Shown: piece by piece, positions 1,756 to 34,117 of the stretch
How the letters are laid out: every line of letters begins with the position of its first letter
Position numbering within the stretch: position 1 is the first letter of the stretch
IMG/VR virus record: IMGVR_UViG_3300031576_000115
Location: 1-43,441 of that record
Direction: 5' to 3' (one strand)
DNA length: 43,441 bases
DNA from: a virus
Position numbers and translations under genes: made by a program
Notes under the pieces: generated by a model
Told to the model about the DNA's origin: nothing
The model's input: only the letters and a program-made list of their open reading frames with translations
Databases searched by the model: none

Positions 1756-1756
1756 A

Positions 1757-6426: not shown

Positions 6427-6429
6427 GGG

Positions 6430-8179: not shown

Positions 8180-8188
8180 GGTTTTTCA

Positions 8189-8497: not shown

Positions 8498-8512
8498 CTC
8501 ACTCCGTTCGGG
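8498..8512 (-). repeat. Leader cassette L2, copy 2
   Basis: Minus-strand CCGAACGGAGTGAGG before the GTG start at 8494. With the start of family B copy B2 it repeats the 1741-1776 block with one mismatch. Confidence 0.75.
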
Positions 8513-8600
8513 GTTACCAGTTACGAGTTACGAGTTACAAAAAATACGCCCCCATCGCTTGCGGCGGGGCCGTAACTGGTAACTGGTCACTCGTAACTAA
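8512..8600. repeat. Family B repeat, copy B2
   Basis: Left arm gttaccagttacgagttac and right arm gtaactggtaactggtcac flank a GC-rich loop. It lies in a 240-nt stretch (8495-8734) without a convincing gene. A 39-codon minus-strand reading frame from about 8675 to 8538 runs through this repeat and was not called. Confidence 0.85.
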
Positions 8601-9033: not shown

Positions 9034-9471
9034 TTACGATCCGGGCGGCAGTCGGAACAACATCGTTTTTCCCCGGCAGACGATCGGCTCGATGGGCCGC
9101 GCCTCCAACAGCACCCACCCCACCGGCCCTTCAAACCACGGATCGTCTATCACCCAATCATAGGTCCGGTCGATCTCGTCCGTCCTATCTTTTCTCCCCA
9201 CGCATTCCACGAGTCGCGCCATCCCGATCACCGCCCCATAAATCAAGTCTGAAGGCTGTAGACCGTAGGCTGTAGGGCCCGCGTCTTCCCTACCACCTTC
9301 AGCCTTCAGTCTATAGCCTCGTGTCTTCGAGGCGTGAATCCCGATCCACCCGCGGTAGGGCGTGGCCCAGGTCCGGTTCTCCACCCGTTTGGGCCCGTGT
9401 ACGATGAGGTGCGCGTAGGGTTGGCGAACGGACAGGATGGGGATGCTGTGAATATCGAATGGGCTCGTCAC
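9034..9471 (-). CDS. ASCH-domain protein with in-frame repeat insertion
   Basis: 145 aa, start GTG 9471 overlapping the upstream stop (GTGA). The N-terminal ILSVRQPYAHLIVHG, then KRVENRTW and YRGWIGIHA, is the ASCH/PUA-like signature associated with RNA or modified-nucleotide binding. The domain is interrupted after IHASKT by family A copy A5, read in frame as YRLKAEGG...GPTAYGLQP. The natural sequence resumes at LIYGAVIGMARLVEC, a typical ASCH strand. The phage evidently tolerates the insert, probably in a surface loop. Confidence 0.85.
   Translation of the reverse strand: MTSPFDIHSIPILSVRQPYAHLIVHGPKRVENRTWATPYRGWIGIHASKTRGYRLKAEGGREDAGPTAYGLQPSDLIYGAVIGMARLVECVGRKDRTDEIDRTYDWVIDDPWFEGPVGWVLLEARPIEPIVCRGKTMLFRLPPGS
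9246..9320. repeat. Family A palindromic repeat, copy A5, in frame inside the ASCH gene
   Basis: Arms ctgaaggctgtagaccgtagg and ccttcagccttcagtctatag. Translated on the minus strand in the one stop-free frame as RLKAEGG...AGPTAYGLQPS, splitting the ASCH fold. Confidence 0.9.
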
Positions 9472-9998
9472 GCTATTTTATTCCCTGGATTGTGTCCCAA
9501 CGTCCACGACTTTCGATAGCATGATTTACACTTCCCGCCCGGTTCCGCCAGCGCCGACGCGATCGCCGCGTCGACTTCGCCTTTGTCAAACCCCGTCCAA
9601 CCGAGGTCGATATCTCCGTCCGCTTGCAGCTCGCCAAGCAAATCGGCCAGTCCTCCCGCGTCCCATTCTCCGCTGATCTTGTTCAATCCGAGATTGAGGG
9701 CCTTTTCCTGGGCGAGGGGCAGGTCCACCACACAGACTTCCACTTCCTTCACCCCGAACTCGGCGACCAGCACCTTGAGTCGCTGATGCCCGCCGACCAA
9801 GTTCCCGCTGCGCTTATTCCACACCATCCCGCCCACGTATCCGAACTGGGCGATGGAGGCTTTGATCTTCTCGTATTCCGGTTCCCCGCGTTTGAGTTCC
9901 TTGCGCGGATTGTACGCCGCCGGTTTTAGTTTCCTCACCGCCACGGTCTGCGCCCGCATGGGCGGAAGGGCCGGTTTCTTGTTTCGGCGTTTCGGCAT
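9468..9998 (-). CDS. ParB-like nuclease-domain protein (second paralogue)
   Basis: 176 aa from ATG 9998. The ParB/sulfiredoxin-type N-terminal domain is clear: AYNPRKELKRG, a central WNKRSGNLVGGHQRLKVL (the GGHxR loop), and ALNLGLNKISGEWD. No ParB helix-turn-helix is seen. The C-terminus carries CKSC. It is paralogous to the protein at 16851-17552, sharing WNKRSGNLVGGH and NKI.GEWD. The first codons (MPKRRNKK) derive from family D repeat D3. Such proteins accompany phage DNA methylases and nucleases; the role here is unknown. Confidence 0.85.
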   Translation of the reverse strand: MPKRRNKKPALPPMRAQTVAVRKLKPAAYNPRKELKRGEPEYEKIKASIAQFGYVGGMVWNKRSGNLVGGHQRLKVLVAEFGVKEVEVCVVDLPLAQEKALNLGLNKISGEWDAGGLADLLGELQADGDIDLGWTGFDKGEVDAAIASALAEPGGKCKSCYRKSWTLGHNPGNKIA

Positions 9999-10008
9999 TT
10001 CGGCGTTT
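9975..10008. repeat. Family D repeat, copy D3, providing a start codon
   Basis: Plus-strand gtttcggcgtttcggcattt and ggcgttt. On the minus strand this reads GAAATGCCGAAACGCCGAAAC, so the ATG start of the ParB-like gene lies within the repeat. Confidence 0.85.
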
Positions 10009-10192
10009 ATCCGCACACCGTCATCCAAATCCGTTGCAGTCTCCGCCCCGCCGCTTCCGTGAGCGGTCGTTTGCGGTGGTTTTTTTCCACGTGCTCCACG
10101 AACGCCCAATCCCATCCGTCGAGGCCCAACCCGGCGGGCTTCCCCTTATGTTTAAGGATTTCTTCCAGGATTTTGTCCTCGTCCGGGGTCAT
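10007..10192 (-). CDS. Small helical protein of unknown function
   Basis: 61 aa (MTPDEDKILEEILKHKGK). Acidic helical N-terminus, then WDWAFVEHVEKNH and a basic stretch. Its stop overlaps repeat D3, which leads into the ParB-like gene. No ribosome binding site is obvious, because the upstream bases belong to repeat A6. No family recognised. Confidence 0.6.
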   Translation of the reverse strand: MTPDEDKILEEILKHKGKPAGLGLDGWDWAFVEHVEKNHRKRPLTEAAGRRLQRIWMTVCG

Positions 10193-10196
10193 TGTA

Positions 10197-10260
10197 GTAA
10201 CTAGGCTGAAGGCTGTAGGTTTTTTGCGCCTATAGCCTACGGTCTACAGCCTATAGCCTC
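10197..10260. repeat. Family A palindromic repeat, copy A6
   Basis: Intergenic copy with arms ctaggctgaaggctgtagg and cctacggtctacagcctatag around a T-rich loop, between two small genes. Confidence 0.9.
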
Positions 10261-10265
10261 GTCCC

Positions 10266-10586
10266 TCAGTACCCCATCGCATCCGCGAAGATGTCCAGCA
10301 AGAGATCAAGGGCCCGCTTTTCAGAGTAGCGGTTGGCGATGGACGCCGCCTTGACGGTGAGCAACACCTTGGCCCGCCGCCCGGTAAACGTCCCGTCGAT
10401 GCGCACCATCCATTGCTCCCGCGGGACCAGCTCTCCCACCGGCACCAGGCATTGAAGGAAGCATTTGGCGAACGGGAAATTCTGTCGATGTTCCATCGAC
10501 GGCTCCGCCGCTTGCGTGAAAGCGGTTGCTTTGCCATTCCCGGTGCCTTCTTTGTGTGTTCGCGATTTAACCTTGTCATTCGCCAT
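10266..10586 (-). CDS. Small protein of unknown function
   Basis: 106 aa from ATG 10586, with AGGATCAGGG upstream. Basic N-terminus (MANDKVKSRTHKEG), then a compact domain with WMVRIDGTFTGRRAKVLL and a C-terminal helix (KRALDLLLDIFADAMGY). It follows the RuvC-like gene by 15 nt, so it probably belongs to the same transcript. No family recognised. Confidence 0.6.
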   Translation of the reverse strand: MANDKVKSRTHKEGTGNGKATAFTQAAEPSMEHRQNFPFAKCFLQCLVPVGELVPREQWMVRIDGTFTGRRAKVLLTVKAASIANRYSEKRALDLLLDIFADAMGY

Positions 10587-10601
10587 CCCTGATCCTGCCT
10601 T

Positions 10602-11117
10602 TCAAGTTTCGTCGCCTTCGTTTCGTAATCGCCCATACGCCCACAAGGCCAACCCGATGGCGTCGCCCACGTCTCCGCCGCGGTCCTTGTTCAACTGCTC
10701 GCGATAAGCCGGAAACTGCGCCGCGATCAGGCGGTTCCGCCTATTCTTCGGCACGCGCCCGGTCCATTCCCGTTCGTTCACCGGAAACGTGTGATCGCCG
10801 CAGTGTTCCAAGCACGTTGCGAGCATCATCCCCGCCGCCATCCCATAGACGGCCATCGCCGACGCCGACGCTCCGCGCCGCTGCCCGCCGCCGACCTTTC
10901 CCGACGGGACCTCGATGCACACTCTGTTGGGCAAGTGTTCGTGAATCAGCTCGACCAAGGAAGAGCGAATGTGGCAAATACGAGAGAGTGCGGCGTCTCT
11001 AGAACGAAGCGGACGCAAACACCCGGCCTCGATGATCTCCGTCGGCGACTTCAGCAGGGCATAGCCCGTCCGCGTGCTGGATGGATCGAGCCCGAGCATG
11101 ATGCCGGTGTTTTTCAA
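10602..11117 (-). CDS. RuvC-like Holliday junction resolvase / RNase H-fold nuclease
   Basis: 171 aa from TTG 11117, chosen for the GAGG site upstream; GTG 11165, overlapping the preceding stop, is an alternative giving 187 aa. The N-terminal IMLGLDPSSTRTGYALL is the RuvC strand with catalytic Asp. VCIEVPSGK supplies a Glu, and GGDVGDAIGLALWAYG holds the C-terminal acidic DxxDA site. The fold and acidic triad indicate a two-metal nuclease, probably resolving branched DNA before packaging. Confidence 0.82.
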   Translation of the reverse strand: MKNTGIMLGLDPSSTRTGYALLKSPTEIIEAGCLRPLRSRDAALSRICHIRSSLVELIHEHLPNRVCIEVPSGKVGGGQRRGASASAMAVYGMAAGMMLATCLEHCGDHTFPVNEREWTGRVPKNRRNRLIAAQFPAYREQLNKDRGGDVGDAIGLALWAYGRLRNEGDET

Positions 11118-11164
11118 TCGAACAGTTCCTCGCTCTCCCGCACGGCTTGCGCCGCGCTCACACA

Positions 11165-11479
11165 CTATCCGAACAGAAAATCCTTCGCTCGATAGTTGCC
11201 GCCCCTGCCGCCTTCGACGAGGCCACGGTCAACGAGCCTATGTAAATCGTCTCCTAGTGAACCACCACGCGGATGGATGTTGAATTGCGAAGCGATGTCT
11301 ACCCGGCTGATTGCGCCTGGATGCGCGACGCATATCGCATCGAAGAATTTCGCCTGTCGTTTAGACAGTCCAGACTTGGCGCGGTCGATCGCCCCCTCCG
11401 CATCCATCGGTTTGGCCGCCGACATGCCCGCCGCCGTAACGGCAATGTGCTGGGCAAAGATGGTCGGGGGCAGTTTCAA
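11165..11479 (-). CDS. Putative winged-helix DNA-binding protein
   Basis: 104 aa, start TTG 11479 overlapping the preceding stop (TTGA), with AAGGG upstream. ATG at 11425 is a possible later start. The C-terminal half (KRQAKFFDAICVAHPGAISRVDIASQFN, written here in parts: FFDAICVAHPG, ISRVDIASQF, LGDDLHRLVDRGLVEG, YRAKDFLFG) matches the helix-helix-wing pattern of winged-helix proteins. It may regulate the island or assist DNA modification. No named family. Confidence 0.6.
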   Translation of the reverse strand: MKLPPTIFAQHIAVTAAGMSAAKPMDAEGAIDRAKSGLSKRQAKFFDAICVAHPGAISRVDIASQFNIHPRGGSLGDDLHRLVDRGLVEGGRGGNYRAKDFLFG

Positions 11480-12555
11480 GGCGTGGAACCCTTTTCGGCG
11501 TCTCGGCGTTTCGACGTTTCAGTGTTTCCGTCCGGGTATTCCCGCCATTCCCGCCCGTCGAGCACGGCCCCGGCGGCTTTCTTTCCGTAGAGGCTCATGC
11601 ACACGATGTTCCCGTTAGGCGTCAGATGTTGGCCTGGGCGACTGGAATCGCACTCGTCGGGCCGAGCTTTCAGATCGACAACTTGCGGGCCGTGGCGTCC
11701 ATTCAATATGCCCAAAGCACCGTCATCGCGGAGATGTCGCCAGGGTGCGTTCGGCATGTTGTCGTCATCCGTTGGCGCCCACGCGCCCCATTGCTTGAAG
11801 AAAAACGGGACGCTCGCCGCTTGGCATTGATCCCGAATAGAGCGCACCCAATCGGGGTGCATCGGTCTCGCCCCCGGCCCGCTCTCCCCGCCGACGATGA
11901 CCCAGTCGATCCCCATTCCGATGTGTCCCTCTGGGTCGCATGGGCGTTGTAAATGGAGGGTGAGATCGACCGCTTCTAGCAGCGGCTCGACGCTCAGGAA
12001 ACGCGCTGCCGCCGGACAGCGAAGCAAGTGCGGAATGCGCTCATCCGCCGTAGCCTGATCCTCCACCGACGTGCCGAGCCAGACGTTGGGAAGGGGTAGA
12101 TGTTTACCTCGAACCAAGTTCCCCATCCAAGTGAACCGACCGCTACGCGCAGGATCGTTCGGAATAGCACACCAGTCCGCCATTCGTTCAGGTCGCTTGG
12201 TAAGAATCTGGAACGTGTGCTGCGGACACAACGCCATCACCGCAAACACCTTGTCGATGAACTCGAACGGCACTTTCTCGTGGAACAGGTCGCTCATGGA
12301 ATTCACGAACACTCGGCACGGCTTGCGCCAATGCAGAGGATCGGACAGCCGTTCAGGCAGACAACGCACCGTGCCGTTGAAATGGCGATCGCCTCGATCG
12401 TTGAGCACGGTGAGGCCGGCGTACTCTTTGGTGCGCCGCAAACGATGACTCATGCGTACAGCGTAGCAGTGGTCGCACCCGGCAGAGACCCGCGTGCACC
12501 CCACCACCGGGTTCCACGTCCTTTCCGTCCATTCGATGTGCGTCGTCGTGCTCAC
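11476..12555 (-). CDS. DUF5131 / phage Gp37-Gp68 family protein
   Basis: 359 aa, start overlapping the methyltransferase stop. The N-terminal IEWTERTWNPVVGCTRVSAGCDHCYA carries the family's Cys cluster (C-x6-C-x2-C), which suggests a metal or iron-sulfur site. Further motifs are FVNSMSDLFHE, FQILTKRPERM, WLGTSVEDQ, FLSVEPLL, WVIVGGESGPGARPM and FFFKQWGAW, all typical. The family recalls radical-SAM or spore-photoproduct-lyase-like folds; the reaction is unknown. The C-terminus (GNTETSKRRDAEKGSTP) is repeat D4 translated in frame. Confidence 0.85.
   Translation of the reverse strand: MSTTTHIEWTERTWNPVVGCTRVSAGCDHCYAVRMSHRLRRTKEYAGLTVLNDRGDRHFNGTVRCLPERLSDPLHWRKPCRVFVNSMSDLFHEKVPFEFIDKVFAVMALCPQHTFQILTKRPERMADWCAIPNDPARSGRFTWMGNLVRGKHLPLPNVWLGTSVEDQATADERIPHLLRCPAAARFLSVEPLLEAVDLTLHLQRPCDPEGHIGMGIDWVIVGGESGPGARPMHPDWVRSIRDQCQAASVPFFFKQWGAWAPTDDDNMPNAPWRHLRDDGALGILNGRHGPQVVDLKARPDECDSSRPGQHLTPNGNIVCMSLYGKKAAGAVLDGREWREYPDGNTETSKRRDAEKGSTP
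11490..11535. repeat. Family D repeat, copy D4, in frame at the end of the DUF5131 gene
   Basis: Plus-strand ttttcggcgtctcggcgttt, then cgacgtttcagtgtttcc. Minus-strand translation is NTETSKRRDAEK, the same frame used by family D in TerL. Confidence 0.85.
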
Positions 12556-13985
12556 GTAATTAGCTCCATTTGCCCGGCGCTTTGCGCGACTTCCGGCTGC
12601 GGTTCGTCCATTGCCCGGCTGATCCGCCGTCGGGCCATGCCGCAGTAGCCGGCGTTCAGCTCGACGCCGACGAAATCCAAGCCCATGCGGCGGCAGACCA
12701 CGCCGACGGTGCCACTTCCCGCGAACGGGTCGAGGACGGCACAGGAGTTTGGCTCGGACTGCGGACCTTCTGGAAAATAGTCAGTGACGGACTTGTAAGA
12801 TCGCCGGTCACCGAAATGTACCCAGGTTTTTCGTTTAACGAGCCGACCTTCACATTCGCATCGCGGGCGCCAGCCGACGGTCTTGAACTCTGTGACGTGC
12901 CGTTTGGGATCTCGATTGCCAACCTCGGCTGCTGCCCACGGCTTCATAGGCCGATCAACGCTTTCGTTGGTTTCTCGGTTGATAGCGTGCCCAAGCGTCG
13001 TGTGGTCAGACCCGCTTGCCCAATCCGTTGGAACGCCGACCTTGCTCCCCGTTCCCGGCCGCGTTGCTCGACGTTGCGATTCCGTGATCCGCTTCCACGG
13101 CGCGCCGCATGTTGGGCAGCACCCCTTCGCCGACGTGCCCGCTTTCAGGCACCGGGCAACCAGTTCGGTTGGAAACGTCGCAAAGTGCGCCCCCGCGAAC
13201 GGTTCGTGGCTTAGCGTCCAGACGGAACGCATGTTGCGGTCGAACCCAGTTGGATTCCCGGTCGCCTTGCGCGATGAATTGTCTGCCAGAGGATCAGTCC
13301 TGCGGCAATCTTCGCGTAGATGTCGTCTGTCGCCCGGCGTCAGAGATTTCTCCCGCACCGCCTCTTGATCGTAGAAATACCTCGGAGACTTGCTGAACAT
13401 GAAAATGTATTCGTGGGCCTTGGTAGGTCGATCGCGCACGCTCTCCGGCATCGGGGAACGCTTGTGCCAGATGATGTCGCTCCGCAGAATCCAACCGTCG
13501 GCCTGCAACGCGAAGGCCACGCGCCAGGCCATGCCAATGAGGTTTTTGGGGCTGAGGCGCATACTGCTCATTGGTTGGCAAACCGTTGTGTCGGAGTATG
13601 CCGGTCTCGCCCACCGCTTTCCCTCCTCTGTCTGGAGACGCTGTTGATTCTTGATGCCGCCCGGAGCGTAATTCCCCCAGCTACCGGAGTATGCATCCCC
13701 GTAATTCAGCCAAAGCGTGGCATCGTCCCGCAGTACGCGGCGTACCTCGCGGAACACGCGCACGATGTTCCAAAGGTGACGATCAAACGTCGGCTCAAGG
13801 CCGATCATTTTGAGCCGGGCGGGATCGTCTTTCTTGAACCCATAGGAACGCAACCCCCAGTACGGCGGGCTGGTGACGCAGCATTGCACCGACTTGGCCG
13901 AAAGTGCCGGCAGGACGGTCATGCAATCGCCTTGGATGATTTCCTGCGGCGGAGTTACGGTTGCACCTTCCTTAGATTTCCGCAC
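12552..13985 (-). CDS. DNA methyltransferase (N4-cytosine/N6-adenine, beta class)
   Basis: 477 aa from GTG 13985; the start is uncertain because an upstream ATG (14105) lies in the previous gene. The catalytic motif IV TSPPYW (about 38-43) precedes the SAM-binding motif I DPFAGSGT (about 420), the beta-class order. IIQGDC and FVGVELN are further methylase motifs. The variable middle carries CCPTCGAPW and CECEG, a likely zinc site in the target-recognition domain. It probably protects phage DNA from host restriction. No cognate restriction enzyme is nearby, so it appears to be an orphan. Confidence 0.9.
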   Translation of the reverse strand: MRKSKEGATVTPPQEIIQGDCMTVLPALSAKSVQCCVTSPPYWGLRSYGFKKDDPARLKMIGLEPTFDRHLWNIVRVFREVRRVLRDDATLWLNYGDAYSGSWGNYAPGGIKNQQRLQTEEGKRWARPAYSDTTVCQPMSSMRLSPKNLIGMAWRVAFALQADGWILRSDIIWHKRSPMPESVRDRPTKAHEYIFMFSKSPRYFYDQEAVREKSLTPGDRRHLREDCRRTDPLADNSSRKATGNPTGFDRNMRSVWTLSHEPFAGAHFATFPTELVARCLKAGTSAKGCCPTCGAPWKRITESQRRATRPGTGSKVGVPTDWASGSDHTTLGHAINRETNESVDRPMKPWAAAEVGNRDPKRHVTEFKTVGWRPRCECEGRLVKRKTWVHFGDRRSYKSVTDYFPEGPQSEPNSCAVLDPFAGSGTVGVVCRRMGLDFVGVELNAGYCGMARRRISRAMDEPQPEVAQSAGQMELIT

Positions 13986-14140
13986 GGCACGCTGTACACT
14001 TGCCCTTCGATCTCGACGCCGTGGTTGCGCGGCTTGCCATGACTCACGATCTTTATTCTTCCAATCTTGCCATGCAGGGGCATCGCGTGGTGCTTGTACC
14101 AACACTGCACCCTCTGCCCGAGCCGTGGGTTGAGCATCAT
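13955..14140 (-). CDS. Small KOW/SH3-like protein
   Basis: 61 aa from ATG 14140 (MMLNPRLGQRVQCWYK), with AGGAAG upstream. The pattern GQRVQCWY...LHGKIGRIKIVS...VEIEGQVYSVPCGNLRKV is that of a small SH3/KOW-like beta barrel. It overlaps the start of the methyltransferase. Possible nucleic-acid-binding accessory; function unknown. Confidence 0.6.
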   Translation of the reverse strand: MMLNPRLGQRVQCWYKHHAMPLHGKIGRIKIVSHGKPRNHGVEIEGQVYSVPCGNLRKVQP

Positions 14141-14236
14141 TTCTTCGTCTTTCTTCCTAATCTATCCGCCGTCTCAACGTCATCTACGTAAGGGTTCCGG
14201 AATACTCCATCGTTGTCATTTCTTGCTCGCTTTCTT

Positions 14237-14317
14237 TTAAGTTACCGACCTCGACCTCGACCCCGACACCGACCACGACCCCGACCACGACCACTTTTGT
14301 CTTTGTGCGCGAAGCAT
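14237..14317 (-). CDS. Tiny Ser/Trp/Arg repeat peptide (low confidence)
   Basis: 26 codons from ATG 14317, which overlaps a TAA stop (TAATG) and has GGGAGG eight bases upstream. The product reads as WS, GS and RS dipeptides because it is encoded by a (CGACC)n minisatellite. Good initiation signals and coupling argue for translation. The simple sequence argues against a folded protein. Confidence 0.3.
   Translation of the reverse strand: MLRAQRQKWSWSGSWSVSGSRSRSVT
14243..14293. repeat. CGACC-type minisatellite
   Basis: Plus-strand run of cgacctcgaccccgacaccg and further cgacc units, period five to six. Lies in the 97 nt between the tiny ORF start and the KOW-like gene; no other gene was seen in 14141-14236. 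Confidence 0.8.
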
Positions 14318-14574
14318 TATTTCAACCTCCCAAACGACTCAATCGCCGCAATTTGAACGTACCATTCATGCGGCAGTTTTTGTGCGTCTTTTCACTCTTT
14401 CGTGGCTAGTTCGCCGGTTTCGTACACGATTGCGGCATCATGCAGCAGCACCAATGTCGCATTGACGCCAACCAGAGTACCAGTGTAGATGTAGTTCAAG
14501 CAGAAGAGCGTAACTCTTTCACCGAGCAGTTTCTCCAAACCTTCGCCCATGACCTCATCAACTATTTTTCTCAT
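14317..14574 (-). CDS. Sm-like small protein interrupted by an in-frame TGA
   Basis: From ATG 14574 (ATGA overlap) the first 60 codons read GERVTLFCLNYIYTGTLVGV, NATLVLLHDAAIVYETGE, an Sm/Hfq-like beta-strand pattern. TGA at 14392-14394 stops it after TKE. In the same frame, 24 further sense codons read KDAQKLPHEWYVQIAAIESF, then GRLK, before TAA 14317-14319, which overlaps the next start. From memory, related phage proteins carry such a C-terminal segment, so the TGA probably replaces a sense codon such as TGG. Either a nonsense mutation or UGA readthrough. Confidence 0.65.
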
Positions 14575-14993
14575 CGTTTTCCCTTCTTTTTATTTGACCT
14601 AGGCCTCGGAAAGATTGTCGTTCCATCCCACGGGCAATTCGGACATTCGATCTTGTGTTTAGCTTCGAGCGGCAGAAACGCGGCTTTCAAGACCTTGTCG
14701 TACTCGGCCCACGCGCCTTGCTCAACCCTGAAGTACTTAGCCATCGCGACGTTCTTCACCTTCTCGGCGGCTTGCTCAACCTTGTCGTACCTGGCAAACG
14801 CGGCGTTCTTGGCCTTCTCGTACTCGGCTAGCAATTGCGTGGCTTTTGTGCTCATGGGCTGATACAGACGCAATCGCAACTCTTGTTCGGCCTTGGGTTT
14901 GTCGGCTTTGATGAAAGCAATGCAATTTTTTCCCAGCCAGTTGTCCCACTCGCATAAAATGTCGTCATGGCAATGCCATGATCCGGTTGTCAT
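14571..14993 (-). CDS. Coiled-coil protein with C-terminal Cys pair
   Basis: 140 aa from ATG 14993 (MTTGSWHCHDDILCEWDNW), overlapping the stop of the Lar-like gene (ATGA). The middle consists of repeated Ala-Lys-Tyr helical units (LLAEYEKAKNAAFARYDK, VEQAAEKVKNVAMAKY, VEQGAWAEYDKVLKAAF), predicted coiled coil with about 17-residue periodicity. The C-terminus has ECPNC and a basic tail. No family recognised; possibly a nucleic-acid-associated or structural factor. Confidence 0.65.
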   Translation of the reverse strand: MTTGSWHCHDDILCEWDNWLGKNCIAFIKADKPKAEQELRLRLYQPMSTKATQLLAEYEKAKNAAFARYDKVEQAAEKVKNVAMAKYFRVEQGAWAEYDKVLKAAFLPLEAKHKIECPNCPWDGTTIFPRPRSNKKKGKR

Positions 14994-15184
14994 TTTTTGC
15001 TCTTTTTCTTCTTCACGTCCCAGGAATCCCAAATGGACCAAGCCTCTTCGATCGTAGGACAATTCAGGCCAAACACGACCATCCGACACATGGGATTAGC
15101 GCAGGCAATTCTCCAGCCCGCGCGCACTTCCGGCTTTACTCCGCACCACGTTCACGGCTTGTGATTTTTTGGCTTTGGCTTCAT
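14990..15184 (-). CDS. Lar-like zinc ribbon gene with in-frame TGA at codon 11
   Basis: From ATG 15184 (overlapping the upstream stop, ATGA) to TGA 14990-14992 (overlapping the next ATG) there are 65 codons in one frame. The only interruption is TGA at 15152-15154. The frame reads MKPKPKNHKP-TGA-TWCGVKPEVRAGWRIACAN, then PMCRM and TIEEAWSIWDSWD. That is the Lar-type pattern (C-x2-C, W-x-x-x-C-x-x-x-x-C, EEA-x-x-x-W). The TGA sits where the first zinc Cys is expected. Single-base loss (TGC/TGT to TGA) or recoding (Sec, Cys or Trp) are the options. Confidence 0.6.
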
Positions 15185-15390
15185 TGCTCGTCATCCAAGC
15201 TGAGAGATTCGATGCACGTTGCAGCGTGCTGGGTAATGTCTCTCAGCGCCGACGCCGTGTCTTCCTTGGGCACGGAACTATCACTCATAATCTTGCAGTC
15301 GATCAAGCGTTTGATTTCTTCGCACGCCTGTTCCAGCCTCGTGCTCTTGGCTTTGGATTTCATATCGCCGGTTTCTTTACTGTGCTTCAT
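15181..15390 (-). CDS. Small charged protein of unknown function
   Basis: 69 aa from ATG 15390, overlapping the upstream stop (ATGA), with its own stop overlapping the Lar-like start. Lys/Glu-rich helical sequence (TRLEQACEEIKRLIDCKI; ALRDITQHAATCIESLSL). No family recognised; tightly coupled to both neighbours. Confidence 0.65.
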   Translation of the reverse strand: MKHSKETGDMKSKAKSTRLEQACEEIKRLIDCKIMSDSSVPKEDTASALRDITQHAATCIESLSLDDEQ

Positions 15391-16331
15391 TCTGTCGCGC
15401 CTTTCAAAAACGCCAATCTGTTCGTCCAGTTCGGATCAACAATCCGCAGATCGAGCAGCGAGGGGTACATGATGACCGCCGACGGCCCGGCCATGAATCG
15501 CCGCGGCCGCTCCCGATACCATTTCCCGTACAATTCACGCCCCATTTCTCTCGAATACTCAAAGTCCGCCGTCCACTGCCACGCCTTGAAGTCGGACCAC
15601 GTGTAGCGTTGCCCGCACCCGACGCTCACCCATGCACATGTATGGATGCCCATGGCGTCGGCCGACGCCTTGCCCAGGCGGGACATTTGCCGCGTCTCCG
15701 CGATCTCACCGACGTTGTACGCCTCCCATCCGATGCTTTGCAGGCCAGGGAAGGGCGCGGACCAGGGCGGCAAAACATACCCGTCCGGTTCGACTGGGGC
15801 CGCCATTGGCCCGAACGCATACCAGTGAACTTCGCTGCAACCCGCGATCGTGCGGATGAAGGAATCATAGGAGGCGTAGAGTTCGGCACACTTCGATCTG
15901 GCGGGTTCGGCGCGACAGTCGAGCGTCTCGGCGTCCACGAGGCAGACGATCGTCGGTTTGTAGGCCGATGCAGCCAGCGCCTTGGCGCAACCAGCTTGCC
16001 ATTGCCGCCACGTAAGACCGAACGCCTGCATCGCCGCCGGGCTGTTCGGATCATTGACCGTCGGGTCGAACCACGGACTAAACGTGACCGCCAACTTGGC
16101 CGCATGGGCTTGCGCGATCTTCAGGGCAACTGCGACTTGGTCCTTGGACGCCTTTTCGGAAACCCCGATGCTGCCGGTGATCCGCGTGACCTCGGCTAGC
16201 TCTGCGTTGTCAATCTTCAACACTTCGGAGGGAATCGGCCACGAGTAGGTCGCTACGGGCAAGGGCTTGACCAACTTCAACTCATCGATCGGCGCCCCGA
16301 ACAACAGAACAATCCACACCATCCAGTTCAT
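15387..16331 (-). CDS. Secreted protein, possibly glycoside-hydrolase-like
   Basis: 314 aa from ATG 16331, coupled to the upstream stop (TGATG) with GGAAGG about ten bases upstream. The N-terminus (MNWMVWIVLLFGAPIDE) is a signal peptide or anchor. The body has segments in the style of TIM-barrel proteins (AKLAVTFSPWFDP; PTIVCLVDAETLDC; SEVHWYAFGPMAAP; IGWEAYNVGE; GIHTCAWVSVGCG), with acidic residues at strand ends. It may be an export-dependent cell-envelope enzyme and is the best candidate seen for a lytic enzyme, but no named lysin family was recognised. Confidence 0.55.
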   Translation of the reverse strand: MNWMVWIVLLFGAPIDELKLVKPLPVATYSWPIPSEVLKIDNAELAEVTRITGSIGVSEKASKDQVAVALKIAQAHAAKLAVTFSPWFDPTVNDPNSPAAMQAFGLTWRQWQAGCAKALAASAYKPTIVCLVDAETLDCRAEPARSKCAELYASYDSFIRTIAGCSEVHWYAFGPMAAPVEPDGYVLPPWSAPFPGLQSIGWEAYNVGEIAETRQMSRLGKASADAMGIHTCAWVSVGCGQRYTWSDFKAWQWTADFEYSREMGRELYGKWYRERPRRFMAGPSAVIMYPSLLDLRIVDPNWTNRLAFLKGATE

Positions 16332-16750
16332 CAGCGGATCCTTCCGGTTTTGTTCCAACGATCAACGACGTCTCCGGGGCGCATTTCCATCCCCGTCACG
16401 GCGTCCACCACGCGCATGGTCCCATCCGCTTTTCGCCGTTCCCACACCAGCAGCGGAAGGCCCTCCCGCACCGCGAAGTTCCGCTCGCCCGAAGCACCTT
16501 CGCTGGAGTTCCAATTCGGCAACAGCAACACCGCGTCGCAACGAGCCAGAATTTCGATGTCCCCCTGGAGGAAGTCCGAGTCGGTCACCGCACCGCCCAT
16601 CAGCAGCGAGTTGAGGTGCGGGCAGATGGGGGCGAACCCCAAGCGCCACAGGCCGATCGACGCCTCCCGCGCCGCGAGAATGTTGGCGAACACAGCCGCC
16701 TCCGTTGGTCCCCGGTAGGGCCCGGCGACGTAGACCACCGGTTTTCTCAT
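16331..16750 (-). CDS. DUF4406 / nucleoside deoxyribosyltransferase-like protein
   Basis: 139 aa from ATG 16750 (MRKPVVYVAGPYRG) with AAGGAACG upstream. The motif VYVAGPYRGPTEAAVFANI is the substrate loop of nucleoside 2-deoxyribosyltransferase-fold proteins. SDFLQGDIEILARCDAVLLLP and EGASGERNFAVREGLPLLVW complete the family pattern. Phage members may act in nucleotide salvage or modified-base metabolism, fitting the nearby methyltransferase and ASCH protein. Confidence 0.82.
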   Translation of the reverse strand: MRKPVVYVAGPYRGPTEAAVFANILAAREASIGLWRLGFAPICPHLNSLLMGGAVTDSDFLQGDIEILARCDAVLLLPNWNSSEGASGERNFAVREGLPLLVWERRKADGTMRVVDAVTGMEMRPGDVVDRWNKTGRIR

Positions 16751-16814
16751 GGTTCGTTCCTTGGTTCGATAACGAATGCCTTTAGCCATAGGCGGGCGAT
16801 CGGGAACGGTGTTG

Positions 16815-16845
16815 TGTAACTCGTAACTGGTAACTCGTAACTCTT
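16815..16845. repeat. Family B repeat, copy B3
   Basis: Plus-strand gtaactcgtaactggtaact and cgtaactc, in the short gap between the ParB-like and DUF4406 genes. Confidence 0.85.
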
Positions 16846-16850
16846 CGCCT

Positions 16851-17552
16851 TTATATCTTGATCGCCCTAGCGTCGTACCCGTCGCCGAGCAGTTCCTTCA
16901 GCGCGTCCCGCTGGGCGGTCTTGCTCGTACACACCACCAGCACCCCCCACTGCTCGATCCGCGGCAGCTCCGCCCGCGTCCGTCCCTTCGCTTCCTCCCC
17001 GACTTCCGCCGCGACCGTCAGGGCCAACGCCGTCTTGATCTCATCCTTGTCGAAACCGGAAAGGGTGACATCCGCCGCCCGGTCCTCCATCAATCCGCCC
17101 AAGACGTCGACCAGGGCCAGCTCGTCCCATTCCCCAACGATCTTGTTGAGGGCCAGGTTGAGCGTCCTTTCCGCCGCCGGGCCCAAGTCCACCACGCTCA
17201 CGTCCACGGCCTTGGCCGCGAACTCGCGGGTCAGGATTTTTAGGCGCATGTGCCCGCCGACCAGGTTGCCGCTGCGCTTGTTCCAGATCAGCGGGTCCAC
17301 CAGCCCGAACTCTCCGATGGAGCGCTTCAGCTTCTGATAGTCCGGGTCGGAGGGCTGCAAGTCCTTGCGCGGGTTGTATTTGGCGACCTTGATCCGCTTG
17401 ACCGGGAGGCGCTTGAGCAGCACCCGGCCCACAGATGAGGCTGTAGGCTGTAGACCATAGGCTGTAGGACCCACAGCCTTCAGCCTGCGGCCTAGTTCAT
17501 TCGTGCGGCGTGCCGCCGCTGTGTCAGCAGTGGGTTTCTTGGTTTTCATCAT
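16851..17552 (-). CDS. ParB-like nuclease-domain protein (first paralogue)
   Basis: 233 aa, start ATG 17552 overlapping the upstream stop. The domain reads KYNPRKDLQPSD, WNKRSGNLVGGHMRLKIL, ERTLNLALNKIVGEWDE, the ParB/Srx fold with the GGHxR loop. No ParB helix-turn-helix was recognised. The C-terminus (WGVLVVCTSKTAQRDALKEL) is extra relative to the paralogue at 9468. The N-terminal about 45 residues consist of repeats read in frame: family C (PTADTAAA) then family A (RRLKAVGPTAYGLQPTA). Function unknown. Confidence 0.85.
   Translation of the reverse strand: MMKTKKPTADTAAARRTNELGRRLKAVGPTAYGLQPTASSVGRVLLKRLPVKRIKVAKYNPRKDLQPSDPDYQKLKRSIGEFGLVDPLIWNKRSGNLVGGHMRLKILTREFAAKAVDVSVVDLGPAAERTLNLALNKIVGEWDELALVDVLGGLMEDRAADVTLSGFDKDEIKTALALTVAAEVGEEAKGRTRAELPRIEQWGVLVVCTSKTAQRDALKELLGDGYDARAIKI
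17437..17497. repeat. Family A palindromic repeat, copy A7, in frame inside a ParB-like gene
   Basis: Arms gaggctgtaggctgtagacc and cacagccttcagcctgcgg. Minus-strand translation RRLKAVGPTAYGLQPTA uses the same frame as the copies in ASCH and TerL. Confidence 0.9.
17511..17533. repeat. Family C palindrome, copy C2, in frame inside a ParB-like gene
   Basis: Plus-strand gccgctgtgtcagcagtgg, translated on the minus strand as PTADTAAA at the very N-terminus of the ParB-like protein. Confidence 0.8.
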
Positions 17553-18178
17553 ACCGTTGCCAGTTCTGGTGCGGGTTCGTTTCCCTTCTTGCCCAATGAC
17601 CTCTGGATTCGTCGCTCCAAGGACGCCAACACCCCGTTGACCCGCTCGACTTCCTGGCGGAGCGTGCGAATTAACTTCCCTTGTTCACCGACCGTCCGCC
17701 GCGCTTCCTCCAGTTGTTGCTGCACGTAGTGCAATCGTTCGTGTTCCGACATCGTCGGCGGCGGCGGGCGCATCCCCGCGACCGTCCGCTCGGCGTCCAG
17801 CAGTTTGGTCTCCTCGTTCTTGGCCCTCCACAACCTGCCTTCGACAACGTACTGCTTTTCCGTCACCCCTTCGTTGATCGCCCGTTCGATGTCCCGTTGC
17901 GTCTCCCCGATGGCCACCAGGGCGGCGTAGTGATCATCCAACCAATCGTCCACCGTCATGTGCCGCCCGGCGGCGTCCTTCAGACTGCTCACGTGATCGA
18001 GGAATTCATTGGTGAAGTCGCGACGCATGGTCATCACGTAGACCGTGAACCGAAACGCCTCCTTTCTAGCCTGTCGCAGATAGTTCGTAGCGCTCTGGCA
18101 CTTCATGCTCAGCCGCGCGTGGCACTCCAAGGCTTCCTTCCACAGATGATCGAACCGTTTTGTCACTTGCGCTTCCAT
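17549..18178 (-). CDS. Coiled-coil protein of unknown function
   Basis: 209 aa from ATG 18178 (MEAQVTKRFDHLWKEALE), with AGGAAAGGAAAA upstream. The C-terminal half (HERLHYVQQQLEEARRTVGE; KLIRTLRQEVERVNGVL; LERRIQRSLGKKG) is strongly heptad-like. The start lies 113 nt inside the end of the zinc-ribbon gene, a long overlap for this genome; a later start is possible. The stop overlaps the ParB-like start. No family recognised. Confidence 0.65.
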   Translation of the reverse strand: MEAQVTKRFDHLWKEALECHARLSMKCQSATNYLRQARKEAFRFTVYVMTMRRDFTNEFLDHVSSLKDAAGRHMTVDDWLDDHYAALVAIGETQRDIERAINEGVTEKQYVVEGRLWRAKNEETKLLDAERTVAGMRPPPPTMSEHERLHYVQQQLEEARRTVGEQGKLIRTLRQEVERVNGVLASLERRIQRSLGKKGNEPAPELATV

Positions 18179-18977
18179 TTCGTTTTCCTTTCCTGTTTTT
18201 CCTACATTCTTTGCAACTAAAACCGTTTTTATTGACCGCCATTTGCATTGGTTCTCTCCAACCCGCCGGCCCGCCGCACCACCGGCACGCCACTGATTTA
18301 CCGCCGCGATAATTAGGATTTTTCTGTCCGGTCCTTGTTTTCCAGCAACCATTGCACAAAGTCACTTTGCTGGGAATTCGATTCCCGTGTCGCGAAAGCG
18401 TGCACCCGCAATGATGACAAAGGGAAATGTGTGGCCCGGAGGAGGTCCCGCGGTTAACCGATAGACCCCGATTGTTGGCGGAGCATTTGTTGCAATAGAA
18501 CCCTAACTTGGCTGCACGCACACGTGAGGGGCACCGCCATCCCGCAGAGCCCCCGCAACTTCGGCACATTTCTATGCCGCCGCCGGTCCAACCGGCAGTG
18601 TTTGCTTCGAAATAATCGGACCTCTTCCGAATACCACGGAGCGCCCGGTGCAAGCGCCCGTAGCAATTTACACACCGACGGCGACCTGCATGAGGACGAA
18701 TCTTGTCGCAATCAATACATCGTATGAGTGGCCCAAGATATTGCGGAATACAAGCCGCCAGGCGTTGAATCTTGGAGCACTTTCGGCAACGGGGAAGCGG
18801 ACGTGACGCGTTCCGTTTAACACCACACCCGGGGCACGTAAAAAATCTGTCCTGGCACCGAACGTAGCCCGGTTGTTCGCGCTCCTTTCTTGAGCGACAC
18901 CTACTGCAACGGTCATGGCAACTGTGCGCACGTTCCAACCCACAATCCACGCAAATTACCAAACGACGGATTCTCAT
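18066..18977 (-). CDS. Six-module zinc-ribbon protein
   Basis: 303 aa from ATG 18977, overlapping the TerL stop (ATGA). Six C-x2-C pairs of pairs follow one another: Cys 9/12-24/27, 48/51-64/67, 87/90-102/105, 138/141-162/165, 187/190-208/211, 231/234-255/258. Modules 4 and 6 are similar (CRSCGGSAGW...CNKC and CRWCGGPAGW...CKEC). NPNYRGGKS before module 6 resembles linkers in HNH/homing-endonuclease-associated zinc ribbons, but no HNH catalytic core is visible. Likely nucleic-acid binding. Coupling to TerL suggests a link to packaging, though an HNH remnant is possible. Confidence 0.75.
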   Translation of the reverse strand: MRIRRLVICVDCGLERAHSCHDRCSRCRSRKEREQPGYVRCQDRFFTCPGCGVKRNASRPLPRCRKCSKIQRLAACIPQYLGPLIRCIDCDKIRPHAGRRRCVNCYGRLHRALRGIRKRSDYFEANTAGWTGGGIEMCRSCGGSAGWRCPSRVRAAKLGFYCNKCSANNRGLSVNRGTSSGPHISLCHHCGCTLSRHGNRIPSKVTLCNGCWKTRTGQKNPNYRGGKSVACRWCGGPAGWREPMQMAVNKNGFSCKECRKNRKGKRNGSASDKTVRSSVEGSLGVPRAAEHEVPERYELSATG

Positions 18978-21151
18978 TCCCGCGCCCCCACGTAAAACTC
19001 TCGCCCGTCCGGGGTCTGGATCCCTTCCTCCGTTTCGACGTTTTGACTTTTTGACGTTTTGACGTTTCTCGCGCAAGCGAGTTGCGCCAGGTGCCCCGCC
19101 GCCGCGGCGTAACACGCCGCGTCCAGGTAGTGATTGCTCTTCCCCACCCGCTCCCAGCGAGTCACCTGCCCGCGATCGGCCACGAACATCTGCACCGGCC
19201 GCTCCGCGGTGAGGTGCTTGGCGAAGGTGAGGTGCTCGGCCTTCACCGCCGCGTACAACCCCATCGCCCCCGGTTCGCCCGGCGGCATGGCCAGCCGCTC
19301 GTGGACCCACGTCTTCCAGAAGTCCACGTTGACCTCCACCATGTGCACGTGCTCCGCCTGATGCCAGGCGACGTGGTAGCCCTCCCCAACGTACTGCACC
19401 ACGTTCCCCGTGCGCGTGGGCCGCGTGTAGCGCCGTCCCGTGTCCGCCGTCTCCCCCCTTCCGTACAACGGGCGGAACACGTCCGCCTTCCATTCCTGTT
19501 TCGTCTCGCGGATGAATTGCAGGGCCGCGTCGCGGCTCTCCGCGTAGCCGGTGTCGATCCAACACTGCGTGGGGCGGTGCAATGCGCCGCTGCCGTCCGC
19601 CCAACCCTGGGCGCAGCGATCGCGGAACTCGCGCAGCGCCACCAACGTGGCCTTCTCCACTCCGAGGTCGATCGTCGGCACGTCGATCACCCCGTACTCA
19701 AAGATGTGACCAAACAACAAGGCTGTAGGCTGTAGGCTGTAGGCTGTAGGTCCCGCGCCTTCAGCCTTCAGCCTATGGTCTACAGTCTGGTCTCCCAGAT
19801 ACCATGCGATGTTGACGTAGAAGGCACGCCATTTGCCAAGGTCGACCCCCGATGACACGCACACCGTACCCTCCGGCACCGTCCCCCGCCCCCATGTCCC
19901 GATGCGGCGTTGCACCCCGTCGCAGGTGATGGGCGCCAAGACGGTGATGTCCGGCTTGTGCGGCAACCCCCACAACTTCTGAAGCCGCGTGCGGCTGGCG
20001 CTCTCCTCGTCGGCGGCGTGGGCGTAGCGCCATTCCTCCGCCGCCAGACTTCCCGCGGTGCGCATGAAGTTGTTGATCGCCGAGAACCGGAACCCCAAGA
20101 TCCGCGTCCGCGGCTGCGGCCCGACGATCACGTCCTCGCTGCCGGGAATGGCCCGCGTTTCTTCCATCGCCATTTCCGCGTTTCGGCGTTTCGGCGTTTC
20201 GGCGTTTCCGATGGTCTGCCCCTTGTGCAGCAACACCGCCGCGAGGTTCATTTCCTTCCGCTCGCCCTCCGACCACGGTTTCAGGCAATGCGGGCAGGCG
20301 AACGCTCCATTTTCTTGGGCCTCAATCTCGTCGGCGGCCGTTTTCCAACCGGTGAGCATCTCCGTGTCCGTCTCCGTGTCGCTGGGCACGATCCATTGCT
20401 CGCAGTGCCAGCAACACAAGGCGATGCGGCTCTGCGAGCCGAGCATGTAATCCTGCCAGATGCGCCCCTGGGCGGTCGACGGCGTGCATTCCTTGTAGAC
20501 CAGGGCCTTATCGTCCCAGGCCTTGGTGCGGTCGATGAACTGGTCGATCTTGGACCCTTCCTCGGACACCGAGGAAATGTGGTCCATCTTGTCCACTTCC
20601 GTGATAATCATCACCCGCGTGGTCTCGCTGGAGCGCTGCGTATCGCCGCCCTGCCCGGACATGAAGCGCAGCGTGGCCCGATTGCGGAAGCGCACGGTCT
20701 GCACCCGGTCGCCGTCTCTACTCCCGTCGCCGCGTTCGGGCATGAATTCCCGATAGCGCGTTCCTTCGATGGCCGGTTTGAGGATGCTGACCCACTTCTC
20801 CCCCGCCAATTTCAGGTCGGGGATACCGCAGATGGTTTTTTCGCGCAATTCAAAGAGGTGATAGAGAGTGGGGATCACGTAGCAGATGGTGGTCTTCCCG
20901 GACTGTACGCACCCCACGACGTTGATGTCTGACCAATTCCCGCTGTCGATTTCGGTGAAGAGCAAGCGACTGAAAGGTTGCCGTTCCCCGCGGAAGCGCC
21001 CCGGATAGGGGCCTTCCCCGAGCACGATCTCTTCCTCCGCGAACTGCATCATTCCCCGCCGCTTGGGTTCGCCGGCGGCGACGATGAAACTTTGAAGGGT
21101 CTCCCGATGGTTTGCTCGAACTCCGCGGCGATCGACGGCTACTGGCGTCAC
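18974..21151 (-). CDS. Terminase large subunit (GpA family)
   Basis: 725 aa from GTG 21151, which overlaps the upstream TGA (GTGA); the frame is open further upstream but low-complexity. Walker A GCVQSGKT (80-87), Walker B IITEVD (about 182-187), zinc-like CWHC (247-250) and CPHC (286-289), and nuclease Asp in GVDLGKW (436-) give the lambda gpA order of ATPase then endonuclease. Two repeats are inserted in frame: family D (about 315-330) between the domains and family A (about 455-478) inside the nuclease region. The C-terminus carries another family D copy. It cuts and pumps DNA at the portal. Confidence 0.93.
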   Translation of the reverse strand: MTPVAVDRRGVRANHRETLQSFIVAAGEPKRRGMMQFAEEEIVLGEGPYPGRFRGERQPFSRLLFTEIDSGNWSDINVVGCVQSGKTTICYVIPTLYHLFELREKTICGIPDLKLAGEKWVSILKPAIEGTRYREFMPERGDGSRDGDRVQTVRFRNRATLRFMSGQGGDTQRSSETTRVMIITEVDKMDHISSVSEEGSKIDQFIDRTKAWDDKALVYKECTPSTAQGRIWQDYMLGSQSRIALCCWHCEQWIVPSDTETDTEMLTGWKTAADEIEAQENGAFACPHCLKPWSEGERKEMNLAAVLLHKGQTIGNAETPKRRNAEMAMEETRAIPGSEDVIVGPQPRTRILGFRFSAINNFMRTAGSLAAEEWRYAHAADEESASRTRLQKLWGLPHKPDITVLAPITCDGVQRRIGTWGRGTVPEGTVCVSSGVDLGKWRAFYVNIAWYLGDQTVDHRLKAEGAGPTAYSLQPTALLFGHIFEYGVIDVPTIDLGVEKATLVALREFRDRCAQGWADGSGALHRPTQCWIDTGYAESRDAALQFIRETKQEWKADVFRPLYGRGETADTGRRYTRPTRTGNVVQYVGEGYHVAWHQAEHVHMVEVNVDFWKTWVHERLAMPPGEPGAMGLYAAVKAEHLTFAKHLTAERPVQMFVADRGQVTRWERVGKSNHYLDAACYAAAAGHLAQLACARNVKTSKSQNVETEEGIQTPDGREFYVGARE
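19026..19072. repeat. Family D repeat, copy D5, in frame at the TerL C-terminus
   Basis: Plus-strand gtttcgacgttttgactttt and tgacgttttgacg, read on the minus strand as NVKTSKSQNVETEE near the end of TerL. Confidence 0.8.
19719..19791. repeat. Family A palindromic repeat, copy A8, in frame inside TerL
   Basis: Four tandem ggctgtag units in the left arm, and ccttcagccttcagcctatgg in the right. Minus-strand translation HRLKAEGAGPTAYSLQPTA interrupts the TerL nuclease domain between YLGDQTVD and LLFGHIFEYG. Confidence 0.92.
20168..20212. repeat. Family D repeat, copy D6, in frame inside TerL
   Basis: Plus-strand cgtttcggcgtttcggcgtt and further units; minus-strand translation NAETPKRRNAEM between the ATPase and nuclease domains of TerL. 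Confidence 0.9.
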
Positions 21152-21423
21152 GGGGTCCCCCCGGCTGCGTCGATCGCCGCGCGTACCGCCTCCGCCACCG
21201 CTTTGACGCGCTGCAGTTCCACCTGCCGCGTATTCACCGGGCTGGGTTGACGGCGGTAATTCTGCACCGCCCGAAAAAGGAGCTCCCTCCCGCGCACGGA
21301 CACGCTGTGCCAATGCCGCCGGCACAACGGATACCAGTCGCAACACCGCTCCGCGCAACCCGCCACGGGGCACGGCGCCGCAACATTCGGACCAACGGTC
21401 GTCGTTTCGTTCATCGTACCCAT
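21148..21423 (-). CDS. Small Cys/His-rich protein
   Basis: 91 aa; starts at ATG 21423 or at 21414 (MNETTTVGPNV). The segment CPVAGCAERCCDWYPLCRRHW holds six Cys and a His in a treble-clef-like arrangement. A basic helix follows (ELLFRAVQNYRRQPS), then KAVAEAVRAAIDAAGG. The stop overlaps the TerL GTG, so the two are probably translationally coupled. It might be a terminase accessory. No named family. Confidence 0.65.
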   Translation of the reverse strand: MGTMNETTTVGPNVAAPCPVAGCAERCCDWYPLCRRHWHSVSVRGRELLFRAVQNYRRQPSPVNTRQVELQRVKAVAEAVRAAIDAAGGTP

Positions 21424-21731
21424 TCCGGCTTCCAGGGTTCATGCACCGTCGACGCGGGCATCAAAAGTTGTTTTTGCGTTTCGGCGTTTTCAACGAAGTG
21501 CGCTGCCGCTAGTTTCTGCGTTTCCGACCCCGTCGGCATCCCCACCTTGTTCACCCGACAAAACGCCGCCGCGCACGGATCGCAAAAAGCCCCCTCGCTC
21601 ACCGCCCCCTTGATGCCCACCAATCGGGCCATGCACGTCGCCGTCCGCCGGCAGGACCCCAACCCGCAGTGCAGGGTGAATCCGTTTCGGAACCGTTCCT
21701 TATCGCTCAACCGTCTTATCGTCGCCTGCAT
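21411..21731 (-). CDS. Small Cys-rich protein between TerS and TerL
   Basis: 106 aa from ATG 21731 (MQATIRRLSDKERF). Cysteines in LHCGLGSCRRTATCMARL and AFCDPCAAAFCRV suggest one or two zinc sites. It overlaps the TerS end by about 32 nt and the next gene by 13 nt. A degenerate family D word is read in frame as NAETQK. No family recognised. Confidence 0.6.
   Translation of the reverse strand: MQATIRRLSDKERFRNGFTLHCGLGSCRRTATCMARLVGIKGAVSEGAFCDPCAAAFCRVNKVGMPTGSETQKLAAAHFVENAETQKQLLMPASTVHEPWKPEWVR
21475..21525. repeat. Family D repeat, copy D7 (degenerate)
   Basis: Plus-strand tgcgtttcggcgttttcaac and, further on, ctgcgtttccg. Inside the Cys-rich small gene and read as ENAETQK. Confidence 0.6.
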
Positions 21732-34074: not shown

Positions 34075-34117
34075 CACGACCTCCGCTGGTTGAAGGCGGC
34101 GCTTGTTTTTTCCTAAA

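Follow-up and report, generated by a model that had tools for sequence, protein, structure and literature searches.

Dispersed palindromic repeats of degenerate heptads, between genes and in frame within genes, in a phage genome

The 43,441-nt virus record IMGVR_UViG_3300031576_000115 (hereafter the window, i.e. the whole stretch of DNA analysed) carries many copies of a palindromic repeat, here called family A, that lie chiefly between genes but also within three of them: those for the packaging enzyme TerL, for an ASCH-domain protein and for a ParB-like protein. We favour, with moderate confidence, the reading that family A is a dispersed, non-autonomous palindromic repeat, which functions like the Rickettsia palindromic elements (RPEs) and is built like the heptad repeats of bacteria. 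An original prediction made from the sequence of the window had claimed these three genic copies in a virus, and both the copies, at their claimed places (Table 1), and the viral nature of the carrier were confirmed.

Each full family A copy consists of two inverted arms of degenerate tandem heptads (CTGTAGG, CTGAAGG, CTGTAGA, CCGTAGG, CCATAGG and others) with a loop of 5–27 nt between them. The two-armed copies (n = 20 in three phages) span 48–76 nt, and the span is 39–96 nt across 28 copies with edges placed by eye. A strict search for clusters with at least three exact units found 10 in the window, the 3 genic ones and 7 others, and further degenerate matches exist, e.g. at 229–252 and 2989–3012, so that the predicted number of twelve copies is a fair one. 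Other families in the window are heptads B (GTAACTG/C), octads C (GAAACGCC, GAAACGTC), heptads E (CATTCGA) and a GTTGAAGA-like octad array. For comparison we used two related phages: L168 (IMGVR 3300025326_002320, 15 kb), whose TerL is 82.6% identical to that of the window over aligned residues, and G046 (IMGVR 3300018079_000018, 42,982 nt), with 31 reciprocal-best pairs of open reading frames (ORFs), a TerL 52.0% identical and 18 family A clusters. Tandem arrays at periods 7 and 8 numbered 11 and 5 in the window, 21 and 1 in G046, and 7 and 6 in L168, and the other periods from 3 to 12 gave 0–2 arrays per genome; in the control, five second-order Markov sequences per genome, there were none at 7 or 8 and one at 11. 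Ten arrays were folded (7 two-armed family A and 3 family B), and their hairpins had z from −2.9 to −5.6, none being matched in stability by more than 1 of 200 shuffles. The repeats are real and exceed chance.

TerL hosts three arrays, and its family A copy was placed in an alignment of 85 TerL sequences (78 distinct), 84 of which cover the beta-turn site. The turn has 31 residues in the window (DQTVDHRLKAEGAGPTAYSLQPTALLFGH) and 30 in G046 (VDQRLKAEGKSVLQPTAYSLQPVSYH), compared with at most 12 in the other 82, among them L168 (NDGETPLFGH), against which the insert is a net 57 nt. Because only the window and G046 are long at this site, the insert is, judged from these sequences, the derived state, and the predicted insertion into TerL is borne out. 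In an AlphaFold model of TerL the insert lies between strands 436–446 and 473–484, and the predicted local distance difference test (pLDDT) score is below 50 at residues 449–471 (family A), 314–323 (family C) and 689–719 (the C-terminal octads). This loop position and the predicted disorder fit a tolerated peptide in TerL, as had been proposed. A PDB search with TerL gave no match.

The TerL linker exceeds 30 residues in 4 of the 85 sequences, namely the window (family C), G046 (family A, EKAVDRRPKAEETPDLQPTAS), L223 (inverted octads) and L168 (no array), and the next longest linker has 14. Since the L168 linker is long without an array, its length is a trait of the phage group as such, and the family C array may have altered a linker that was already long rather than lengthened it. 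The octads of L223 (G066, from the same order as the Phycisphaerae genome G009 described below) are of the type GAGGCAAC. At the C-terminus, the octad region has a different sequence in L168 and G046. Within the 85 TerL genes, three arrays were found at period 7, eight at period 8, three at period 6, one at period 12 and none at periods 4, 5 and 9–11. Another phage TerL (L283, 2964–3122) has heptad and octad arrays near its C-terminus, with an inverted partner, of families unlike those of the window.

In the ASCH gene the Pfam match ends at residue 50 (profile position 41 of 103) and the repeat starts at residue 54. The loop at this place reads RGYM(A/D)DVE(H/Q)YRELIGDP..LKFG in G046 and L168, as against RGYRLKAEGGREDAGPTAYGLQPSDLIYG in the window; the L168 gene has a 1-nt frameshift at this loop. 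In G046 the stop codon of the ASCH gene (after SGLFRL) lies inside a family A element (2390–2446 of locus L230, equal to 14390–14446 of G046). The ATG of the ParB-like gene, at 17552, and the TGA of the gene upstream overlap, and no stop interrupts the frame within the family A copy, hence translation of this N-terminal insert is plausible on sequence grounds. A variant of a further dispersed palindrome of the window, CCACTGCTGTGTCAGCAGCGG-like and also present at 4614, 37737, 41023, 41998 and 42477, lies in frame in the same N-terminus at 17499–17549. The ParB-like protein of G046 has an N-terminal extension of its own at this place, unrelated to that of the window.

All three genic copies encode peptides of the type RLKA(E/V)G...PTAY(G/S)LQP in the frame of their gene, and the two remaining sense frames hold stops in each of them, as had been predicted. 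A common frame and orientation had been read from this as well; the common frame stands and is explained by a stop-codon filter, but orientation is nearly meaningless for near-palindromes, and if the arm that holds AGACC is used to set it, TerL reads one way relative to its gene and the ASCH and ParB-like copies the other. With each heptad of an array the phase moves by one base. The arm that reads CCTACAG has no stop in any frame, whereas the one that reads CTGTAGG runs into TAG or TGA unless a suitable variant unit occurs in each phase. The gene frame is open in five of five genic copies (TerL and ASCH of the window, two in TerL of G046, and one in the portal gene of another phage, L162), with exactly one open sense frame in four of these and two in one. 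Among 23 non-genic copies of the window and G046, a set with edges placed by eye that includes the ParB-like copy and the copy at the 3′ end of the G046 ASCH gene, 15 have no open sense frame and 8 have one. Thus only stop-free copies would persist in genes, and as the stop-free phase of the 5′ arm reads R(L/P)KAEG, the peptides look alike. The shared frame is no evidence of a coding purpose.

Copies in related phages lie at different places, mainly intergenic gaps and sometimes genic loops or linkers. Among 26 gaps common to the window and G046, arrays were detected in both phages for 4, in the window only for 5, in G046 only for 8 and in neither for 9, and turnover of arrays between the two is high. 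Shared hotspots were considered and rejected, as there is no excess of gaps filled in both (Fisher p = 0.70, 26 gaps); this value leaves aside two weaker arrays that the strict detector missed (4163–4209, family C; 37845–37865, family B), in gaps with family A in G046, which would shift two ‘G046 only’ gaps to ‘both’.

A degenerate family A pattern matched at least 118 stretches in GTDB genomes and 41 in IMG/VR, and in a whole-genome search all 45 genomes chosen via such loci matched, as that choice entails, many at numerous sites. The other family A viral loci number 38, on fragments of 36 contigs, and 33 of them gave no match to the window proteins. In L162, one of these 33, an 18-residue in-frame copy in a lambda-type portal is lacking in three aligned portals, and the Pfam domain (42–373) spans it. 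Inverted GTCTATA-type heptads lie in the MnmA gene of a Nomurabacteria metagenome-assembled genome (MAG; L097), which has 12 residues more than PDB 9hlv. Across all loci, redundant ones included, 258 family A clusters were counted, 29 of which (as rows) lie in ORFs of at least 150 aa with 50 aa on either side. Among 10 such ORFs compared with Pfam, the domain spans the array in the portal and MnmA, and in a glycosyltransferase only below the cut-off; PurL, N_methyl and Fer4 domains lie beside it, and 4 ORFs have no family. The remaining rows are candidates, several of them probably spurious ORFs. In a Kiritimatiellaeota PurL (L074, 5643–5734), families E and A stand adjacent and in frame, N-terminal of the PurL linker domain, a composite array that resembles those in the phages. 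A 34-residue composite insert peptide had no match in 50,697 phage records, where the low-complexity filter may hide matches.

The strict family B pattern matched only two of 48 genomes or records, G009 (Phycisphaerae DeMMO2_2) and G026 (Phycisphaera mikurensis Bin_18_1), and these two have four unit types in common with the window: family A, two of family B, and the GAAACGTC octad. In their order, the family A and family B patterns each occur in 3 of 114 genomes. With one pattern, the density of family A per Mb is 115 in the window, 372 in G046 and 69 in L168, and 5.5 in G009 and 0.4 in G026, i.e. 12–67 times denser in the three phages. TerL homologues were found in 8 of 114 genomes in the order of a Phycisphaerae MAG (E ≤ 0.001), with five matches in four genomes at E < 1e-70. 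Comparison of these sequences points to a Phycisphaerae-like organism as the likely host.

Thus, in the reading that we favour, family A, with arms of about 2–4 degenerate heptads each, would be one of several 7- and 8-nt families common to a phage group and some Phycisphaerae genomes; copies may spread because the host cell, as the original prediction supposed, or another phage supplies a copying function in trans, local slippage would alter the number of units after dispersal, and the peptide encoded by a genic copy would be an inert, disordered loop. Copying is favoured by an anatomy that the copies share in their flanks and in the order of their units. CGC follows 10 of 54 arrays in the window and G046, against 6 of 174 in the loci of other genomes, 5 of 75 in other viral loci and 2 of 19 in G009. 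Moreover, the succession of an A-ending unit by a CC-starting one exceeds expectation in the window (odds ratio 33, p = 0.00013) and in G009 (odds ratio 15, p = 0.0007), and weakly so in the other genomes (odds ratio 2.4, p = 0.00013).

Several results weigh against dispersal of a copied element. The A-then-CC order does not reach significance in either G046 (p = 0.57) or L168 (p = 0.44), the asymmetry of the arms is weak (AGACC is confined to one arm in 12 of 20 copies, P = 0.09), and the number and order of units differ among copies. The ASCH copy is genic, as predicted, but, as far as the compared sequences tell, it replaces a native loop and is no clean insertion. L168 has no family A copy in TerL, and G046 has one; since L168 is the nearer to the window, either L168 lost the element or there were two gains. 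By eye, no target-site duplication is evident at TerL or L162, where the flanks are too unlike those of the empty relatives for exclusion. No mobilising gene was recognised among the 50 window ORFs compared with Pfam, in agreement with the original prediction, and none of the 50, most of which match no family, has a transposase, integrase or reverse transcriptase domain. The TerL model, built on 8 sequences, has a mean pLDDT of 68.8 and 12 segments below 50, three of which lie at arrays; with nine low segments elsewhere and a modest model, disorder is weak evidence.

An alternative would need no mobile element: permissive sites would give rise to the arrays locally, through slipped-strand mispairing and template switching. 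It would suit the specificity for periods 7 and 8 in the phage group and in the G009 and G026 loci, where, away from the seed match, we found 24 arrays at period 7, 9 at period 8, 3 at period 4 and none at other periods from 5 to 12, loci that were chosen for carrying such arrays. It would also suit the TerL linker, which holds different families in the window, G046 and L223, and heptameric repeats are described as over-represented in bacteria, with polymerase slippage as the hypothesis (PMC4692102). Against it, family A occurs with similar loop edges at non-orthologous sites of different phages. Moreover, the arms within a copy are less alike (0.832) than arms swapped between copies (0.866, standard deviation 0.013, P(≥ observed) = 0.997), which argues that one arm is no recent copy of its partner. 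Finally, 77 TerL loci of other phages (428,617 bases) show no excess at 7 and 8 (3 and 5 arrays, compared with 8, 9 and 11 primitive arrays at periods 3, 9 and 12), so slippage alone is not making such arrays everywhere. We consider birth in place unlikely, though not strikingly so. Self-correction of the hairpin, in which one arm templates the other, was also considered and rejected, on the same comparison of own and swapped arms.

The mover could instead be a host Y1 transposase of the RAYT type, with family A as a palindrome like those called REPs. Family A units contain GTAG, and GTAG-tagged REPs are described from the PVC superphylum and also inside genes (PMC3733652). Y1_Tnp domains were found in 14 of 15 cellular genomes, all of them picked for family A; across the order, however, they occur in 109 of 114 genomes, as against 3 of 114 for each of families A and B, and Y1_Tnp is absent from G027, a genome with 27 family A matches. 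None of 20 Y1_Tnp loci had an array of period 7 or 8, one apparent match being a masked run of N; among the matches listed, these were 5 of 7 loci in G009, 3 of 3 in G026, 6 of 13 in G012, 4 of 10 in G037 and 2 of 4 in G001, and the true host is not among these genomes. An association with RAYT was rejected, given a domain that is near-universal in the order and loci without flanking arrays, and we regard movement by such transposases as very improbable.

Retention for function receives equally little credence from us. Here, hairpins would be kept for regulation, as terminators, mRNA ends or protein-binding sites, and genic copies would be side effects. Strong and chiefly intergenic hairpins, and a stop codon within an element as in the G046 ASCH gene, would be expected of such elements, and a regulatory role has been proposed for TAACTGA heptads (PMC4679880). 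Most sites, however, are not common to the window and G046, and no Rfam family matched at gathering score anywhere in the window.

More broadly, a single process that advances in steps of 7–8 nt, such as a host-cell polymerase working from a template or a host-cell recombination activity, might write or copy inverted arrays of many families into phage and bacterial DNA. We hold this to be doubtful; if true, it would explain the periods 7 and 8, the coexisting families and the three families in one TerL linker. Among 17 genomes or records, 12 have reverse transcriptases, a count that was made without control relatives and carries no weight either way.

Coordinates of the arrays and of the genes concerned are collected in Table 1. 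Besides the genes listed there, the window encodes a lambda-type portal, an S49 protease, a phage cement protein, a DNA methylase and a DUF5131 protein; the ParB_N match of the ParB-like protein is weak and under the Pfam cut-off. A capsid-like protein has 6 matches in 50,697 phage records, all below 60% identity. A direct terminal repeat of 137 nt (1–137 and 43305–43441) with a single mismatch, at position 11, suggests that the genome is complete or circularly assembled. At 22926–22988, within gene 22579–23412, which has no Pfam match, the 22-nt direct repeat GGTGGACATTTTGACCACCGGT occurs as two perfect copies and one nearly complete, with internal dyad symmetry; these repeats resemble replication iterons in a phage initiator gene. 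Holliday-junction resolvases can cut cruciforms, and one may speculate that the RuvC-like protein of the window could act on cruciforms formed by the palindromes.

Table 1. Repeat arrays of the window and the genes discussed (positions in nt of the window)
Feature	Position	Strand	Remarks
Family B inverted heptad arrays	1756–1806		hairpin folded
Family A, S49 protease/portal gap	6427–6497		intergenic, hairpin folded; none detected in matching G046 gap
Family A beside portal gene	8111–8187		intergenic, hairpin folded; G046 gap also with one
Family B inverted heptad arrays (GTTACCA/GTAACTG)	8512–8594		period scan and hairpin
ASCH-domain gene	9034–9471	−	Pfam ASCH, E 4.2e-5
Family A in ASCH	9246–9322	−	native loop replaced, 24 residues for 18
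Family A	10199–10263		intergenic; strict cluster and hairpin
RuvC-like gene	10602–11165		Pfam RuvC, E 3.1e-5
Family B array	16816–16845		3′ of ParB-like gene; in L168, family A copy 3′ of its ParB-like gene
Family A in ParB-like gene	17437–17500	−	N-terminal, upstream of conserved domain
TerL, gpA-type terminase	18974–21442	−	Pfam GpA_ATPase, E 3.6e-23; GpA_nuclease, E 4.5e-16
Family C-like octads (GAAACGTC)	19031–19068	−	in frame near TerL C-terminus (RNVKTSKSQNVETEE)
Family A in TerL (TVDHRLKAEGAGPTAYSLQPTA)	19719–19791	−	in frame, beta-turn of nuclease domain
Family C octads (GAAACGCC)	20171–20211	−	in frame, TerL linker (NAETPKRRNAE); period-8 array
Family A, one-armed array	34112–34156
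Family A	35065–35149		intergenic; gap 117 nt, against 54 nt in G046 without element
Family B inverted heptad arrays	40088–40139		period scan and hairpin
Degenerate family A array	40141–40187		adjoins family B hairpin
Family E heptads (CATTCGA)	40783–40821	−	in frame, gene 40273–41013 (RMSNVECRMSNE)
Degenerate family A array	42020–42060

These observations widen the range of in-frame palindromic inserts beyond Rickettsia, to phages and to enzymes of virion assembly, and tie them to the poorly understood dispersed heptad repeats of bacteria. Because phage genomes are small, a single population offers filled and empty sites for comparison, so that the spread of the repeats is open to direct test. 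The inserts further point to places in TerL and the portal where, from the sequences compared, some 20 additional residues seem to be tolerated. None of six repeat peptide or DNA strings occurred in the open-access literature searched, and among the titles and openings of abstracts listed from that literature we found no report of in-frame palindromes in phages or of heptads in Planctomycetes.

Degenerate heptads are also known from the cyanobacterial STRR repeats, from the P6b region of tRNA-Leu introns, where they form complementary stem arms, and from small dispersed repeats. The closest parallel in behaviour, already drawn by the original prediction, is with RPEs. According to PMC2229807, these form hairpins, lie between genes and in frame within unrelated conserved genes, where they are tolerated as an extra peptide, and in Rickettsia measure 105–146 bp with terminal inverted repeats. 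The in-frame palindromic behaviour is the part of that parallel that holds: the window copies are palindromic, all seven two-armed copies folded as hairpins, and in-frame copies occur in unrelated conserved genes (TerL in the window and G046, the portal of L162, MnmA of L097). Membership among RPEs is not supported, since family A is shorter, the two-armed copies lying outside the size range given there, and it consists of tandem heptads. It also differs in occurring in phages and several phyla, with several families coexisting. The carrier here is a phage that has families in common with two Phycisphaerae MAGs.

In structure, the TAACTGA heptamers of Beggiatoaceae, Cyanobacteria and Bacteroidetes come near. 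According to MacGregor (PMC4679880), these are dispersed, mostly intergenic with some in ORFs, their orientation is limited by stop codons, their mover is not known, and the genome studied has 169 direct sets and one indirect. Family A shares with them the tandem 7-nt units at many dispersed sites, in numbers that the controls lacked, and family B (TAACTGG/TAACTCG) is one or two letters away; here, however, inverted pairs are many, as in the 20 two-armed copies of family A, and the arrays are phage-borne, one of them within the terminase nuclease domain. The GGGAATC and GGGGA(C/T)T heptads of Xanthomonas and Nostoc are likewise dispersed, with lengths that vary between relatives, but they form G-quadruplexes, and inverted arms are not described in the accessible part of that paper (PMC4692102). 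GTAG/CGTC REPs, which occur in Planctomycetes too, are palindromes of 20–40 bp that carry an unpaired tag; they lie between genes and at times within them, and RAYT genes are often flanked by them (PMC3733652). Family A is longer than this, its GTAG recurs in the heptads instead of forming a single unpaired tag, and the 20 Y1_Tnp loci examined had no flanking arrays. Hence, by sequence, the repeats of the window are structurally akin to dispersed heptad repeats, and are set apart from them by their inverted arms, by several families occurring together and by their phage carriers.

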